Source: Pseudobdellovibrio exovorus JSS
GTDB lineage: Bacteria > Bdellovibrionota > Bdellovibrionia > Bdellovibrionales > Bdellovibrionaceae
Reading direction: 5' to 3'
Assembly: GCF_000348725.1 (NCBI RefSeq)
Contig: NC_020813.1
Span: forward strand, 1,116,001-1,180,000
Length of the DNA stretch: 64,000 nt
Shown: piece after piece, positions 4,379 through 49,162 of the stretch
How the letters are laid out: every line of letters starts with the position of its first letter
Numbering within the stretch: position 1 is the stretch's first letter
Notes under the pieces: model-generated
The model's database searches: none
What the model saw: only the letters and a program-made list of their open reading frames with translations
Told to the model about the DNA's origin: nothing
Made by a program: the position numbers and the translations under genes

Positions 4379-6244
4379 ATGCAAGAGCAAATGGACTCGT
4401 CGTCTATTGAGGAAGTTAAATCTAAAAAATCAAATCCAGAAGTGGAAGCAGCAGATATCGAGGCTCAAGAAGAGTCTGAAAATATCTTTGCTACATGGGG
4501 TCTGTCTAAAGAGGTTTTACGTTCTTTAGCTGAGTTAAATTTCACTCAACCAACACCTATTCAAAAACAAGCTATCCCAGTTTTATTGGGGCGCGAAAAA
4601 GACTTCGTTGGCTTAGCGGCGACAGGAACTGGAAAAACAGGGGCCTTCGGGATTCCGTTGGTCGAAACAATCGATGCTGAAAGTAAGTCTGTTCAGGCAT
4701 TGGTGATGTGTCCGACACGTGAGTTAGCTACTCAAGTGGAAGCGCAATTACAAAAAATGGCAAAATGGAAGGGCCTAAGCACGCTGACGGTGTTTGGTGG
4801 GTCTTCTTATGATCGTCAAATTACGGCCTTGAAACGAGGCGTACAAATCGTTGTGGGAACTCCAGGTCGTCTGTGTGATCTTATTGACCGCAAAGTTTTA
4901 AAATTAAAAGATGTTCAGACTTTAGTTTTGGACGAAGCTGACGAGATGATCTCTATGGGTTTCCAAGACGATCTTGAGAAAATTTTAGAAGCCATCGGAG
5001 ACAGCGAAGATAAACGTAAATGGTTATTCTCAGCTACAATGTCACCAGAGATCAGACGTGTGGTTTCTAGATACTTGCCAGATTATGACAAGATTGAAAT
5101 TCACAAAGAAGATTCTCAAAAACCTCAAATTGAGCAAATTTACTACACGATCTATCCTGATCGTAAATTACAAATGTTATCTGCAGTTCTTTACATGAAC
5201 CCTGAGTTCTATGGTTTGGTGTTCTGTCAGACAAAACGTGAAGTAACAGAAATTACAGACTGGTTAAAGCGCAAATCTTTCAAAGTGGATTGCATCCATG
5301 GTGACCGCCCACAAAGAGAGCGTGACTTTATCTTGAAAGATTTCCGTTCAGGACGCGTTAAGATCTTAGTGGCAACAGATGTGGCTGCCCGTGGTTTGGA
5401 TATCAATGACTTAACTCACGTTATCAACTTCTCTTTACCACGCGAAGTGGAAAGCTATGTTCATCGTATCGGCCGTACTGGTCGTGCAGGTAAAAAAGGT
5501 TTAGCTTTATCAATCGTGGCACCGCATGAAGTGAAGTTATTAAAGCGTATTCAACAAGTAACGAAAGCAAATCTTGTTAAGGGTACAGCACCAACAAATG
5601 ACGAGCTGAATGTTTATCGCGTACGTGATGTTATTAATGGTATGAACCAAGTTAAAGACAATGAGTTATATCATCGCGCAGGTAAGTTCTTAGACCGCAA
5701 AATGGACGAACTAAAAGAAGCTTTCGAGTTTGATTTTACAGTGGAAGAGTTTTTAAAACGTCTTGTGCTTTCTGAACATCCGGATATTTTTGAAAATCGC
5801 GACACATCTATGGATTTCGTAGGTGATGGAGTTGTTCCTCGTGAAATGCAAGCTGGTGGCGGACGCCCATCGCGCTCTGATGATCGCTATCGCAGTGGTG
5901 GTCGTGGTCAAGGCCGTGGCGGTGATCGCTATGAGCGCAATGATCGCGGTGGCGACCGTTTTGATCGCGGAGATCGCGGCGGTGAACGTCGTGGCCGTAG
6001 CGAGCGCTTTGAAGGTCGTAGCTATGACAGAGGTAATGATCGTAATGCTGAACGCAGTCATGACCGCGGAGACCGCGCTTTTGGGTTTGGTGCAGACAAG
6101 GATAAGTTCCGTGATCGTCAACAACCAAGTCGTCAATTAAATGGTTTTAAATCATGGAATTCAGACGATGACTCAAATCGTCCTCGTCGTCGTAGCACTA
6201 CAGGTCGTCCTTCTGAAGGACGTCGTTCGTCTTCACGAGACTAG
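4379..6244 (+). CDS. DEAD-box ATP-dependent RNA helicase (DeaD/CsdA type) with RG-rich tail
   Basis: ATP-driven RNA unwinding protein, 621 aa from the ATG at 4379, chosen because AAGGA lies 6 nt upstream; the frame is open further upstream but those codons look non-coding. Motifs in order: Q motif (FTQPTPIQKQAIP), Walker A (AATGTGKT), PTRELA, TPGR, VLDEADEM, SAT, and in the second RecA domain ATDVAARGLD and HRIGRTGRAG. An accessory region is followed by about 120 residues of Arg/Gly/Asp-rich low complexity (repeated DRGGDR, GDRGG), like the RNA-binding tails of DeaD proteins. Likely roles are ribosome assembly and mRNA decay at low temperature. Confidence 0.93.
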   Translation: MQEQMDSSSIEEVKSKKSNPEVEAADIEAQEESENIFATWGLSKEVLRSLAELNFTQPTPIQKQAIPVLLGREKDFVGLAATGTGKTGAFGIPLVETIDAESKSVQALVMCPTRELATQVEAQLQKMAKWKGLSTLTVFGGSSYDRQITALKRGVQIVVGTPGRLCDLIDRKVLKLKDVQTLVLDEADEMISMGFQDDLEKILEAIGDSEDKRKWLFSATMSPEIRRVVSRYLPDYDKIEIHKEDSQKPQIEQIYYTIYPDRKLQMLSAVLYMNPEFYGLVFCQTKREVTEITDWLKRKSFKVDCIHGDRPQRERDFILKDFRSGRVKILVATDVAARGLDINDLTHVINFSLPREVESYVHRIGRTGRAGKKGLALSIVAPHEVKLLKRIQQVTKANLVKGTAPTNDELNVYRVRDVINGMNQVKDNELYHRAGKFLDRKMDELKEAFEFDFTVEEFLKRLVLSEHPDIFENRDTSMDFVGDGVVPREMQAGGGRPSRSDDRYRSGGRGQGRGGDRYERNDRGGDRFDRGDRGGERRGRSERFEGRSYDRGNDRNAERSHDRGDRAFGFGADKDKFRDRQQPSRQLNGFKSWNSDDDSNRPRRRSTTGRPSEGRRSSSRD

Positions 6245-45378: not shown

Positions 45379-45657
45379 ATGAGTAAAAAACTATACGTCG
45401 GTAATTTGCCGTATTCAGCAACGGATGAATCTTTAACAGAAAAATTTTCTGAGTGTGGCACTGTCAGCTCAGTAAAAGTTATCATCGATCGTAATTCAGG
45501 TCGCAGCAAGGGTTTTGGCTTTGTCGAGATGTCAAATGACTCTGAAGCAGATACCATTATCAGTCGTTTCAATGGGACGGATGTGGATGGTCGTGCTATC
45601 AATATATCAGAGGCTAAGCCAATGGTTCCCCGAAATGATTCGGGTCGTTCATACTAG
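45379..45657 (+). CDS. RNA-recognition-motif (RRM) protein
   Basis: 92 aa, single RRM like the bacterial Rbp proteins. RNP2 KLYVGNLPYS and RNP1 KGFGFVEM, both with the aromatic residues that stack on RNA. Short Arg-containing tail. Strong AGGAGG Shine-Dalgarno, but it can pair with an upstream complement. Bacterial RRM proteins are often cold-induced RNA chaperones. A sister gene lies about 0.8 kb downstream. An intrinsic terminator follows. Confidence 0.93.
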   Translation: MSKKLYVGNLPYSATDESLTEKFSECGTVSSVKVIIDRNSGRSKGFGFVEMSNDSEADTIISRFNGTDVDGRAINISEAKPMVPRNDSGRSY

Positions 45658-45686
45658 TTCTTTTATTTAATCTTAAGAATTATAAA

Positions 45687-45714
45687 AAACCGGCCTTTGT
45701 AGGTCGGTTTTTTT
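45687..45714 (+). terminator. Intrinsic terminator after the first RRM gene
   Basis: AAACCGGCC pairs with GGTCGGTTT (one G-U), loop of 6 nt, then a run of seven T including the stem end. Classic rho-independent terminator. Confidence 0.85.
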
Positions 45715-45730
45715 GTTAGATAGGTAGAAA

Positions 45731-46201
45731 ATGCAACCACAAATTATTTCATTTAACTGTCTTTTAAAAAATATTGCCGGAAAAGTTTTAAGTTCTACGT
45801 ATAATAGAGAAGTCTTAAACGTTGTTGATGATGAAAACGTCATGTTGCTAGGGCTAGCAAAAGGCCTACAAAATTTAACGAAAGGTGAAAAAAGAAGGAT
45901 TTCGTTATCTGCACAGGATGCCTATGGTTTCTATGACCCTAAAAAAGTTATCCTTTACCCAAGGAAGTATCTTCCGCAGGATATTCGAGTAGGCACATCC
46001 GTTACAATTGTGGGTAAAAGTGGGCGTTCAAGAATTTATAAAGTGATTGAGTTGTATCACCACATGGTGACCTTAGATGAAAATCATCCTTTAGCGGGAC
46101 AGGACTTAGTCTTTGAAATTGAGGCCTTATCAGTAAGGCCAGCTACACAGACCGAGATCAATGAGTCATACAATATGGTAGGGGTGCAAATTCTGCACTA
46201 G
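45731..46201 (+). CDS. SlyD-like FKBP peptidyl-prolyl isomerase
   Basis: 156 aa; AGGTAG upstream of ATG. SlyD-type FKBP: LGLAKGLQNLTKGEKRRISLSAQDAYGFYD, insert-in-flap region, then VTLDENHPLAGQDLVFEIEALSVR, the most conserved block. The His-rich C-terminus of E. coli SlyD is absent. Catalyses prolyl isomerisation or acts as chaperone. Confidence 0.88.
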   Translation: MQPQIISFNCLLKNIAGKVLSSTYNREVLNVVDDENVMLLGLAKGLQNLTKGEKRRISLSAQDAYGFYDPKKVILYPRKYLPQDIRVGTSVTIVGKSGRSRIYKVIELYHHMVTLDENHPLAGQDLVFEIEALSVRPATQTEINESYNMVGVQILH

Positions 46202-46424
46202 CGTGATTATCCTCTGTTGTATTTGGAACTCTATATAAACCATGTAAATTAAGTAGGGTTCATATAATTAAGAATAGCAGAACAATCTTAATGGGTTAGA
46301 GTTATTATACTGATGAAAGAGTCTTGATTTTAAAAAATAAAAAATTATTAATTTGGTAAGTGGGTCAGTTTCCTGTAAAGTGGCCTTTCCAACGGTTTCT
46401 TTCGATTAAATTGCGTAGGGCTCT

Positions 46425-46458
46425 TTCTTCTTTAGTACCATCATATCCTAAGGAGGAA
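46425..46458 (+). promoter_or_regulatory. Leader hairpin hiding the Shine-Dalgarno of the second RRM gene
   Basis: TTCTTCTTTAG (46425-46435) pairs over 11 bp, with two G-U pairs, with CTAAGGAGGAA (46448-46458), which contains the Shine-Dalgarno of ATG 46461. Loop of 12 nt. The remaining 46202-46424 holds no visible gene and is very AT-rich. Confidence 0.5.
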
Positions 46459-46460
46459 AT

Positions 46461-46763
46461 ATGAGTAAAAAATTATACATTGGAAATTTATCTTATAACG
46501 TAGACGAAGGCGCTTTAAACGCGTTGTTCTCTCAATACGGAGCAGTTGAGTCTGTTCGTATCATCACTGACCGCGACACAGGTCGTAGCAAAGGTTTTGC
46601 ATTCGTTGAAATGACAGAAGAAGCAGATGGCTTAAAAGCTATCGAAAACTTGAATGGCACTCAACAGTTCGAACGTTCAATGAACGTAAGTGTTGCTAAA
46701 CCTATGGAATCACGTGGTGGTTCTAGAGGCGGTGGCGGCGGTTTTTCTAGAAATCGTTACTAG
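46461..46763 (+). CDS. RNA-recognition-motif protein with Gly-rich tail
   Basis: 100 aa. RNP2 KLYIGNLSYN, RNP1 KGFAFVEM; tail SRGGSRGGGGGFSRNRY typical of glycine-rich RNA-binding (Rbp/GRP) proteins. AAGGAGG 6 nt upstream. A close paralogue of the 45.4-kb RRM protein, suggesting duplication with an FKBP gene between. IF-1 paralogue gene follows 14 nt later. Confidence 0.93.
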   Translation: MSKKLYIGNLSYNVDEGALNALFSQYGAVESVRIITDRDTGRSKGFAFVEMTEEADGLKAIENLNGTQQFERSMNVSVAKPMESRGGSRGGGGGFSRNRY

Positions 46764-46777
46764 GTTTAAAGCTCGTC

Positions 46778-47020
46778 ATGGCTAAAGAAGACCTAGTTAC
46801 CTTTACAGGTAAGGTACGTGACTTGTCCGGGGGTGGTGTTTATCACATCACCCTTGATAACGGAGTTGCTGTATCTGCGCGCCTGTGCGGGAAAATGAAA
46901 AAATTCAATATTAAAGTTGTCGTAGGCGACATGGTCGATGTGGGACTTTCCCCGTATGATCCATCACATGGCCTGATTACTCATCGTCATAAAAATCATA
47001 GACCATCATCGGTCAATTAG
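46778..47020 (+). CDS. infA: Translation initiation factor IF-1 paralogue
   Basis: 80 aa, OB-fold S1-type protein: starts MAKEDLVTFTGKVRDL, VSARLCGKMKKFNIKVVVGDMVDVGLSPYD..GLITHRHK. IF-1 is normally 72 aa; this is longer, with a divergent central strand (GGGVYHITLDNGVAV) and a C-terminal NHRPSSVN extension. It may be a second IF-1 acting under stress next to the RRM protein gene, or the only IF-1 of the cell; the rest of the genome would decide. Confidence 0.85.
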   Translation: MAKEDLVTFTGKVRDLSGGGVYHITLDNGVAVSARLCGKMKKFNIKVVVGDMVDVGLSPYDPSHGLITHRHKNHRPSSVN

Positions 47021-47035: not shown

Positions 47036-47464
47036 TTATTTTTTACTATATTGTCTTAAATACATTTCATTTTTAATGGATAAGCTATTTCCGATACGTT
47101 CGGAAATGAGCTTCCAAAGATGGCTTTGCTGTAAGGTGAGGCGATCGTCTAAAGTCTGATGAAAGAGGCCGAGCCATCTTTCTAATAAATTGTGATTAAA
47201 TCCAGCGAAAAAATGCTTTGTCACAGGGTTATACTCTGTCGATAGGTAAGGGTGTCCACCAAAGCGGATCCACCAGAAGTGGGTGAGTCGCTCTATATGT
47301 TCAGGCCAGTCGTGCACAGAACGAAAAGAAACTGACAGGATAGAGTCCTGCTGTATGCGATTATAAAAATCATCAATAACATTATAAATATCCTGATGAC
47401 GGAATGTAACGCCATTGACTGCAACTGTATTCAGTTCTGGTTCTAAAGGGCTTTTTTTATTCAT
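47036..47464 (-). CDS. Truncated haemoglobin, group III
   Basis: 142 aa. The 2/2 globin pattern: VIDDFYNRIQQDSILSVSFRSV, WPEHIERLTHFWWIRFGGHPYLS, then the heme-side segment NPVTKHFFAGFNHNLLERWLGLFHQTL, which carries the proximal His. Group III trHbs are linked to NO or peroxynitrite handling under microaerobic conditions. Divergent from nnrS across 167 nt with a large palindrome; strongly suggests joint NO control. Confidence 0.8.
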   Translation of the reverse strand: MNKKSPLEPELNTVAVNGVTFRHQDIYNVIDDFYNRIQQDSILSVSFRSVHDWPEHIERLTHFWWIRFGGHPYLSTEYNPVTKHFFAGFNHNLLERWLGLFHQTLDDRLTLQQSHLWKLISERIGNSLSIKNEMYLRQYSKK

Positions 47465-47505
47465 AGGAACAACTGACCTTGTTATTTATCGTCTCGTTTA
47501 TTAAG

Positions 47506-47552
47506 AGTCGACTTTATATGTTGTATGTAATATACAATATATAAAGTCGACT
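47506..47552. promoter_or_regulatory. 47-nt near-perfect palindrome, candidate NsrR operator
   Basis: Outer arms of 14 nt match perfectly (AGTCGACTTTATAT, 47506-47519; ATATAAAGTCGACT, 47539-47552). The inner 19 nt pair too, apart from G-T at 520/538 and 527/531 (last three digits), around centre 47529. Divergent gene starts lie 41 nt and 79 nt away. NsrR is encoded nearby, so it is the best candidate regulator; a hairpin is the other reading. Confidence 0.6.
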
Positions 47553-47631
47553 GTCAATTTGGACGGGCGGTATAAAAGATAAAGTAAATGCAGAATAAAT
47601 ACAGAACAGCAAAAACGAGATGGATTAAGAT

Positions 47632-48753
47632 ATGAAAACTCTAGCTCCTTATCAGATATTTTTTCCTATTGGTATCTTGTGTGCCTTATTAGCGGTCGGT
47701 GTTTGGTTTACCCAGAACTTGGGGTGGTTTGACACTCCGGTGATGTGGGTTCACGGAAAGCTAATCGCAGGTGGGTTTTTGTGGAGTTTTATAGTTGGAT
47801 TTTTGATGACGGCCGTGCCGCGCATGACGGGAACATTTAATGCGCACAAGGTAGAATACGCCATTTCATTTTTATTGATATTGGCACTGATTGTTTTTTC
47901 ATGGGCCCTAGATGCCAAACCTTTTTATTTTATAAGTTTTGCTCTGACAGTATTCATTATGATTTATGCAGGGCGAAGATTGGTTGTGAGTACAAGGCCA
48001 GTGCCTGTGTTTTTCTCTCATGTGGGTTTGGCGATGTTCATGTCTTTAGTTGGCTCTTATTTTTATTATAGAGGGCAATCTATTTTAGGATTTTATTTTT
48101 ATCATGTTGGAACTATTTTGTTATTAGTTTTAGGAATAGGCACACGATTCTTTGCGTTTTTATCAGGCCTTCCCTCTGTATTTGAAGGTACGGAAGAAAA
48201 ATGGAAGAAAGCTGCTTTTCATATGATGGGATTGGCAATTGTGGTCTTGCTAAGCGTTGTGGGTATGAGGCTATCATGGGGATTTTTAGGATTAGCTTTA
48301 CTCACATTGGGTTATCTATTTTGTATATGGCAAGTGCAGCGCTCTTCGAGTCGTCCTTCAGCGTTGAAATGGGCGGTTAGAATTGTGGCTGTGATGATAC
48401 CACTCAGCTTTATTTTAAGCTGGATTTATCCCGTTTATTATCTTTCTTGGATGCACATACTTTTTGTGGGATGCTTCGGTTTAATTACTTTCTCTGTCGC
48501 TACGCGTGTGACATTGGCGCACGGGGCCTATCCAACGGATATGGAGTTAAAATCGAAAGCGTTGGGATGGATGGTGGCTTTTATCGTTCTGGCGATGGTA
48601 TCCAGAGTGTTTTATGGCTTTTCATCTGGATTATGGAAAACAAGTTTTCTGCATTTGGCGGGCACATTTTGGTTTTTAGCTGTTGGCGTTTGGTGTTATT
48701 CTTACTTTAAAAAAATCTTCAAACTGGGCCCTCAATCTAAACCGAGTTGTTAA
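47632..48753 (+). CDS. nnrS: NnrS-family heme-copper membrane protein
   Basis: 373 aa with about 12 TM segments. N-terminal APYQIFFPIGILCALLAVGVW and GGFLWSFIVGFLMTAVPRMTGT are family signatures, with conserved His (VHGKL; FFSHVGLAM; FYFYHVGTIL; MHILFVGCFGLITFSVATRV). NnrS proteins protect against nitrosative stress and iron-thiol damage. Downstream NsrR is translationally close (10 nt). Confidence 0.92.
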   Translation: MKTLAPYQIFFPIGILCALLAVGVWFTQNLGWFDTPVMWVHGKLIAGGFLWSFIVGFLMTAVPRMTGTFNAHKVEYAISFLLILALIVFSWALDAKPFYFISFALTVFIMIYAGRRLVVSTRPVPVFFSHVGLAMFMSLVGSYFYYRGQSILGFYFYHVGTILLLVLGIGTRFFAFLSGLPSVFEGTEEKWKKAAFHMMGLAIVVLLSVVGMRLSWGFLGLALLTLGYLFCIWQVQRSSSRPSALKWAVRIVAVMIPLSFILSWIYPVYYLSWMHILFVGCFGLITFSVATRVTLAHGAYPTDMELKSKALGWMVAFIVLAMVSRVFYGFSSGLWKTSFLHLAGTFWFLAVGVWCYSYFKKIFKLGPQSKPSC

Positions 48754-48763
48754 AGGGATATTC

Positions 48764-49162
48764 ATGCGATTAACGGATCATACAGATTACTCTTTGCGCG
48801 TGTTGATGTATCTGAATCAGAAAAAAAGCCTTATTACTTTAAATGAGTTGGCTGAGAAATTAGGTATTTCTAAAAATAACTTGATCAAAGTCTCTAATCA
48901 GTTAGCTAAAGCGGGATGGATTGACACATCCAGAGGACGCACAGGCGGTCTTGTTATTAAAGCGGAAACGGGAAGCATGAGTCTAAAAGAAATTGTGCTG
49001 AAAACGGAAGAGACATTTAATATGGCTGAATGTTTTTCTAATAAGAAGTGCCATTGTACATTTTTGCGTAACTGCCTCTTGAAAAAAAGTCTAAACGAAG
49101 CCCTGTCGGCTTTTCTTGAGGCGTTATCAGAGAAAACTTTGAACGATGTGACTGTAAGATAA
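48764..49162 (+). CDS. nsrR: Rrf2-family nitric-oxide-sensing repressor NsrR
   Basis: 132 aa from ATG 48764 (AAAGGGAT upstream); an open frame further 5' is inside nnrS. Winged-helix N-terminus MRLTDHTDYSLRVLMYL and LAEKLGISKNNLIKVSNQLAKAGW, then TGGLV. The cluster-binding Cys are in AECFSNKKCHCTFLRNC, as in NsrR, which loses DNA binding when NO attacks the Fe-S cluster. Likely controls nnrS and the globin. Confidence 0.92.
   Translation: MRLTDHTDYSLRVLMYLNQKKSLITLNELAEKLGISKNNLIKVSNQLAKAGWIDTSRGRTGGLVIKAETGSMSLKEIVLKTEETFNMAECFSNKKCHCTFLRNCLLKKSLNEALSAFLEALSEKTLNDVTVR

Follow-up and report, generated by a model that had tools for sequence, protein, structure and literature searches.

The window, by which we mean the whole 64,000-nucleotide stretch of Pseudobdellovibrio exovorus JSS DNA analysed here, contains a compact gene unit arranged around a 167-nt intergenic spacer (47465–47631) with divergent gene starts on either side. 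On the minus strand lies a gene for a truncated haemoglobin of group III type (47036–47464; 142 aa; Pfam Bac_globin, 30.9 bits against a cut-off of 21). On the plus strand nnrS (47632–48753; 373 aa; Pfam NnrS, PF05940, 115.8 bits against 28) is followed after 10 nt by nsrR (48764–49162), which encodes a 132-aa Rrf2-family regulator (Pfam Rrf2, 101.1 bits against 30). These coordinates agree with a preliminary description in which the haemoglobin gene and nnrS diverge from 167 nt, and the same description's reading of the locus as a nitric oxide (NO) defence unit is backed by the sequence, each of the three products scoring above its Pfam cut-off.

The only solved structure matched by the haemoglobin at E ≤ 0.001 was 2ig3, the group III protein Ctb of C. 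jejuni and the closest solved haemoglobin to that of the window. Residues Y34, H56, H84 and W97, which align with the Y, H, H and W that serve in the haem pocket of Ctb, are invariant (4/4), and by this similarity and these residues the protein is assigned to group III. Together with NnrS it probably serves in coping with NO. In C. jejuni, Ctb is under NssR, a regulator of the CRP/FNR family. A search of the window's own genome (2,657,893 bases, one contig) for other NO enzymes returned two COX1 proteins and no flavohaemoglobin above the cut-off, the sole match being to its reductase part; it also returned no qNOR relative, an empty answer that, without a known positive, shows nothing. NnrS used as a query against the genome contigs found no related locus. 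Elsewhere in the window, at 45379–47020, two small RRM-domain proteins flank an FKBP-type protein and an 80-aa IF-1-like protein comes next.

Within the spacer lies a 47-nt palindrome (47506–47552) with 21 of 23 arm positions paired. The pairing around its centre at 47529 was the top value of the 64-kb window, and six order-1 resamplings of the window gave maxima of 15–17 pairs compared with the 21 observed; over the arms 47500–47526 and 47532–47558 the complementarity was 89%. The outer 14 nt of each arm are exact, with AGTCGACTTTATAT at 47506–47519 and ATATAAAGTCGACT at 47539–47552, just as had been described earlier for a near-perfect palindrome with perfect outer arms. The single-strand DNA fold of the palindrome had a z value of −9.45.

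Identity of the regulator

The regulator falls within the Rrf2 family by the NCBIfam rrf2_super model (96.8 bits against a cut-off of 73.3), and its best solved-structure match is NsrR of S. coelicolor (5n07). Two scores speak against control by NsrR: the protein fell short of the curated NsrR model (83.8 bits, cut-off 182), and it scored higher with the RirA model than with that for NsrR, yet still below the RirA cut-off (109.8 bits against 193). The NsrR cut-off was also missed by a Niallia homologue adjoining hmp (148.7) and by a Flavobacterium homologue (104.3), and it therefore marks the E. coli-like branch; relatives adjoining hmp score high with both models. NsrR and RirA are better told apart by a residue test, because the cluster ligands of NsrR are Asp8 and three Cys, whereas RirA has Asn8 (PMC10510648). 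Asp8 was invariant in all 14 orthologues, and so were C90, C98 and C104, but not C96, the fourth Cys of the protein, which bears out the earlier remark that the gene 3′ of nnrS encodes a product with the expected Cys. A RirA identity was rejected on the Asp8 residue and on the RirA score below cut-off, and the ligands and the structural match both uphold an NsrR-type repressor. We thus regard the regulator as an NsrR-type Rrf2 protein that is predicted to hold an iron-sulphur cluster.

In a phylogenetic tree, which took 3 of 13 Bacteroidota and 2 of 16 Pandoraea regulators, the 16 Bdellovibrionota regulators grouped together (98/97), and their sister lineage (96/95) was made up of the Flavobacteriia-type regulators found at hmp-nsrR-like loci; the deeper branches and E. 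coli NsrR were not resolved. A rhizobial relative with Asn8 branched outside.

The inner box and its association with nsrR

Comparison of 16 loci (the window, 14 loci of relatives and L102) revealed a conserved core, gTTGyAT-N5-ATrCAAc, confined to 23–27 nt and lying in the window at 47518–47540, the inner 23 nt of the palindrome. The site set took the best-matching 23-mer of each locus, a choice favouring the box, and L100 is absent from it because its stretch stops short of the operator. The box type has the same N5 spacing as the published NsrR consensus, gATGyAT-N5-ATrCATc (Rodionov 2005, PMC1274295), from which it differs by one symmetric base; the window's own box carries one mismatch. 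A matrix built from the 15 other loci gave the window site a score of 28.7, against 5.6 for the next non-overlapping site in the 64 kb. On likely gene starts the box lay between divergent genes in 16/16 loci, several longest-ORF starts overlapping it, and the flanking pairs were haemoglobin/nnrS (seven loci), ccoN-like operon/ATPase-nnrS-nsrR operon (four), haemoglobin/nsrR (three), haemoglobin/ATPase (one) and FmdE-like/nnrS (one). The sequence thus supports the earlier proposal of one site between the divergent genes, placed at 47518–47540 in the 167-nt spacer. The accompanying remark that the site is much longer than NsrR sites holds for the whole palindrome, not for the conserved box, which has the usual NsrR length. 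Because length and spacing of this box are standard for NsrR, neither the long site nor the other main regulator that had been considered is needed.

The box is tied to nsrR across genomes. Strong nsrR orthologues (E below 1e-58) were present in 13 of the 143 genomes of the class, and the box at one mismatch or fewer in 8, compared with 0/143 for the reversed control. Seven of these eight box-bearing genomes fall among the 13 with a strong orthologue; in the eighth, G033, the ATPase-nnrS contig stops inside nnrS. Of the nine sites, eight lay at an nsrR/nnrS locus, G126 having two of these, and the ninth, in G033, lay 39 nt upstream of an FmdE-like gene. When two mismatches were allowed, the box was found in 11/13 relatives searched (13 sites versus 3 control sites), including one site, G068:C14, with no recognised NO gene nearby. 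G042 and G119, whose nsrR matches were weak (E about 1e-31 and 1e-30), were excluded from this search of 13 relatives and from the site set; they were included in the search of 143 genomes, where they showed no box at one mismatch. An nnrS fragment in G007, behind a different operon, had no box in the 900 nt read. The search of the window's own genome for further copies of the palindrome core, which the preliminary description had proposed, found the box unique at one mismatch and, at three mismatches, near control level (five sites versus four control sites).

An NsrR alignment located 42 related loci in named genomes. The box type preceded nsrR in 13/13 Bacteroidota loci (12 at two mismatches, one at three) at a distance of about 1.28 kb, with a flavohaemoglobin-like gene, judged by eye, between box and nsrR in 3/3 loci read. 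Loci with no box count against an NsrR switch: they comprised 4 of the 12 Bdellovibrionota loci, in stretches reaching about 3 kb upstream of nsrR, and all 16 Pandoraea loci (L107–L121 and L123), which have more distant regulators and showed neither the box nor its exact core.

The outer arms of the palindrome

The outer parts of the palindrome behave differently from the conserved box. Each carries the self-palindromic AGTCGACT (47506–47513 on the left, 47545–47552 on the right), so that the motif is present twice, 39 nt apart. At offsets 14–23 from the centre, pairing was 10/10 in the window; the corresponding figure for the 15 other loci was 35%, and arms paired across different loci reached 28%, at most 7/10. 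Pairing so far above both levels indicates that the extension is not due to chance and belongs to this species, the chance values themselves being optimistic for a region picked for being striking. Conservation of the outer arms was rejected by the comparison with the 15 other loci, none of which conserves them, and on these alignments the palindrome's extra length is peculiar to this species.

The complete pairing would suit an operator that uses the full 47 nt here, either through two NsrR dimers or through one dimer with extended wing contacts; NsrR of S. coelicolor could contact the minor groove beyond 23 bp (PMC9338935). We consider such an operator unlikely, given arms that no other locus conserves and an arm pair that, among 14 genomes of the genus, only the window's own contains. 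The suggestion that the palindrome binds two dimers is without support, as a scan of the flanks with a matrix from relatives gave no further NsrR-like site. The self-palindromic AGTCGACT, with its two copies 39 nt apart, could also be the site of a regulator other than NsrR, or such a regulator could have the whole palindrome as its main switch. This we judge highly improbable: the inner box has NsrR spacing and occurs in step with nsrR from genome to genome, and in the 14 genomes of the genus the pattern AGTCGACT-N15..40-AGTCGACT had its sole copy in the window, with the reversed control present in 2/14.

The arms could have arisen by a template-switch mutation or reflect extra contact. A functionless origin, in which a template switch at a site that was palindromic beforehand copied one arm onto the other, has in our estimate not quite an even chance and is compatible with an NsrR switch at the inner box. 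Imperfect inverted repeats become more perfect by template switching (PMC7202029, PMC8604942), and the strand here forms a stable hairpin. The left arm matches that of the congener at 8/12 positions and the right arm at 4/12, as expected if the left had been copied onto the right, but the match is weak because the distant locus L087 also reaches 8/12 on the left, and the comparison covers the single congener with the locus. Selection would give the same picture. At longer odds, the operator of this species may have grown, perhaps through a template switch, to the 47-nt palindrome, and the added arms may have gained a role by giving the wings or a second dimer a hold on the DNA beyond the 23-nt box and so locking both promoters; if so, a mutational process would have built a stronger two-way switch. 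As a small natural experiment, the extended arms could show whether mutation or selection lengthens the palindromes of operators.

Predicted promoter overlap and the proposed switch

A candidate haemoglobin promoter on the minus strand, TTGACA-17-TATATT, has its predicted −35 element at 47552–47557 and its predicted −10 element, TATATT, at 47529–47534, inside the box (11/12 matches). One such promoter was found compared with 1.3 in shuffled sequences, so it is not significant alone. Its position relative to the box is conserved: TTGAC occurred exactly at +24 from the box centre in 11/16 sites and within one base of it in 13/16. This fixed distance places the predicted −10 of the haemoglobin promoter in the box. 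Against an NsrR switch, the −35 element is shifted in 3/16 loci, to +28 in one of them, and absent in two. A search for an nnrS promoter found none, a further point against the switch, as is the one mismatch of the window's own box.

A terminator or RNA hairpin, to which the strong single-strand fold might point, was rejected when a terminator-like site was sought and none found. The palindrome is flanked by divergent genes, its conservation is sequence-specific, and with the predicted leftward start inside it a leftward transcript would hold only half of it; we give this reading almost no weight.

The evidence fits best a local NsrR switch in which repression by occlusion would be relieved by NO, a reading to which we assign a probability of roughly 0.8. 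In the absence of NO, NsrR would occupy the inner box at 47518–47540 as a dimer carrying its iron-sulphur cluster and so cover the predicted −10 of the haemoglobin gene. The same dimer would hinder transcription of nnrS-nsrR, presumably as a joint transcript from a putative rightward promoter on the opposite strand, and would therefore also limit NsrR synthesis; we infer this nnrS-side control from the placement of the box and from NsrR action elsewhere. Destruction of the cluster by NO would make NsrR leave the DNA, and haemoglobin, NnrS and NsrR would be made together. The outer arms would be dispensable in this mechanism.

Such a one-site NsrR switch in a presumed predatory bacterium would be ordinary in kind. 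NsrR regulons described for proteobacteria, Bacillus and Streptomyces share with it an Rrf2 repressor and an N5-centred box, and nnrS is a regulon member that in some genomes forms an operon with nsrR, as it presumably does here (PMC1274295). They differ in having gATGyAT and hmp as the usual target in place of gTTGyAT and a truncated haemoglobin. The main text of that paper does not name Bdellovibrio. A parallel described there is Legionella pneumophila, where the sole predicted NsrR target, glbN-lpg2536, is likewise a one-site regulon with a small haemoglobin, although that target is a cyanoglobin with a ferredoxin reductase and without the nnrS present here. The hmp-nsrR-like operons of Flavobacterium and Chryseobacterium (L124–L136) have the variant box TTGTTGyAT-N5-ATrCAACAA and regulators sister to those of Bdellovibrionota, but there a flavohaemoglobin-like gene (by eye, 3/13 read) stands between box and nsrR, and the arrangement runs in one direction only. 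On Sphingobium pTK2 and Azospirillum p3 an NsrR-like Rrf2 gene diverges from a group III truncated haemoglobin gene, the two kinds of gene being neighbours as in the window; there hmp or an alternative oxidase replaces nnrS, and Sphingobium has the classic, not the variant, box. Open-licence literature on NsrR or NO in Bdellovibrio, and on NsrR in Bacteroidetes and RegPrecise, gave, by title and the start of the abstract, no account of this site. The switch would offer a small, testable regulon for the study of NO sensing in Bdellovibrio-like predators, and the one-base box variant, shared with Flavobacteriia, is usable for annotating NO genes in both groups.

Other genes adjoin the box in relatives. 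At L076, L077, L084 and L086 it lies between the ATPase-nnrS-nsrR operon and the genes of a divergent cbb3-like oxidase (at L077 a ccoN-like gene with 266.8 bits, cut-off 583, FixO and a cytochrome c), and the oxidase is perhaps NO-tolerant or NO-reducing. L077 also has, near nsrR, a copper nitrite reductase with a fused cytochrome c domain (4756–6228; TIGR02376, 367 bits against 296.3), with which a gene near nsrR at L082 (2616–4103) clusters by BLAST. The box-adjoining haemoglobin of L082 (6103–6366; G106) has only 87 aa, apparently with part of the fold missing. A conserved protein of about 190–210 aa recurs beside NsrR boxes (L077, 13691–14311; L063, 902–1462; L075, 8793–9371; L086, 13387–14001; L102, 732–1352) and in G033 its gene is preceded, at 39 nt, by a separate box. 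It had no Pfam match over the cut-off (FmdE, E 0.03); its structural model (pLDDT 75) shows similarity to proteins of the FmdE-like type (2gvi; Foldseek E 8.8e-5). This FmdE-like protein, present in 16 of the 143 class genomes and absent from the window's, is possibly a new NO-response protein.
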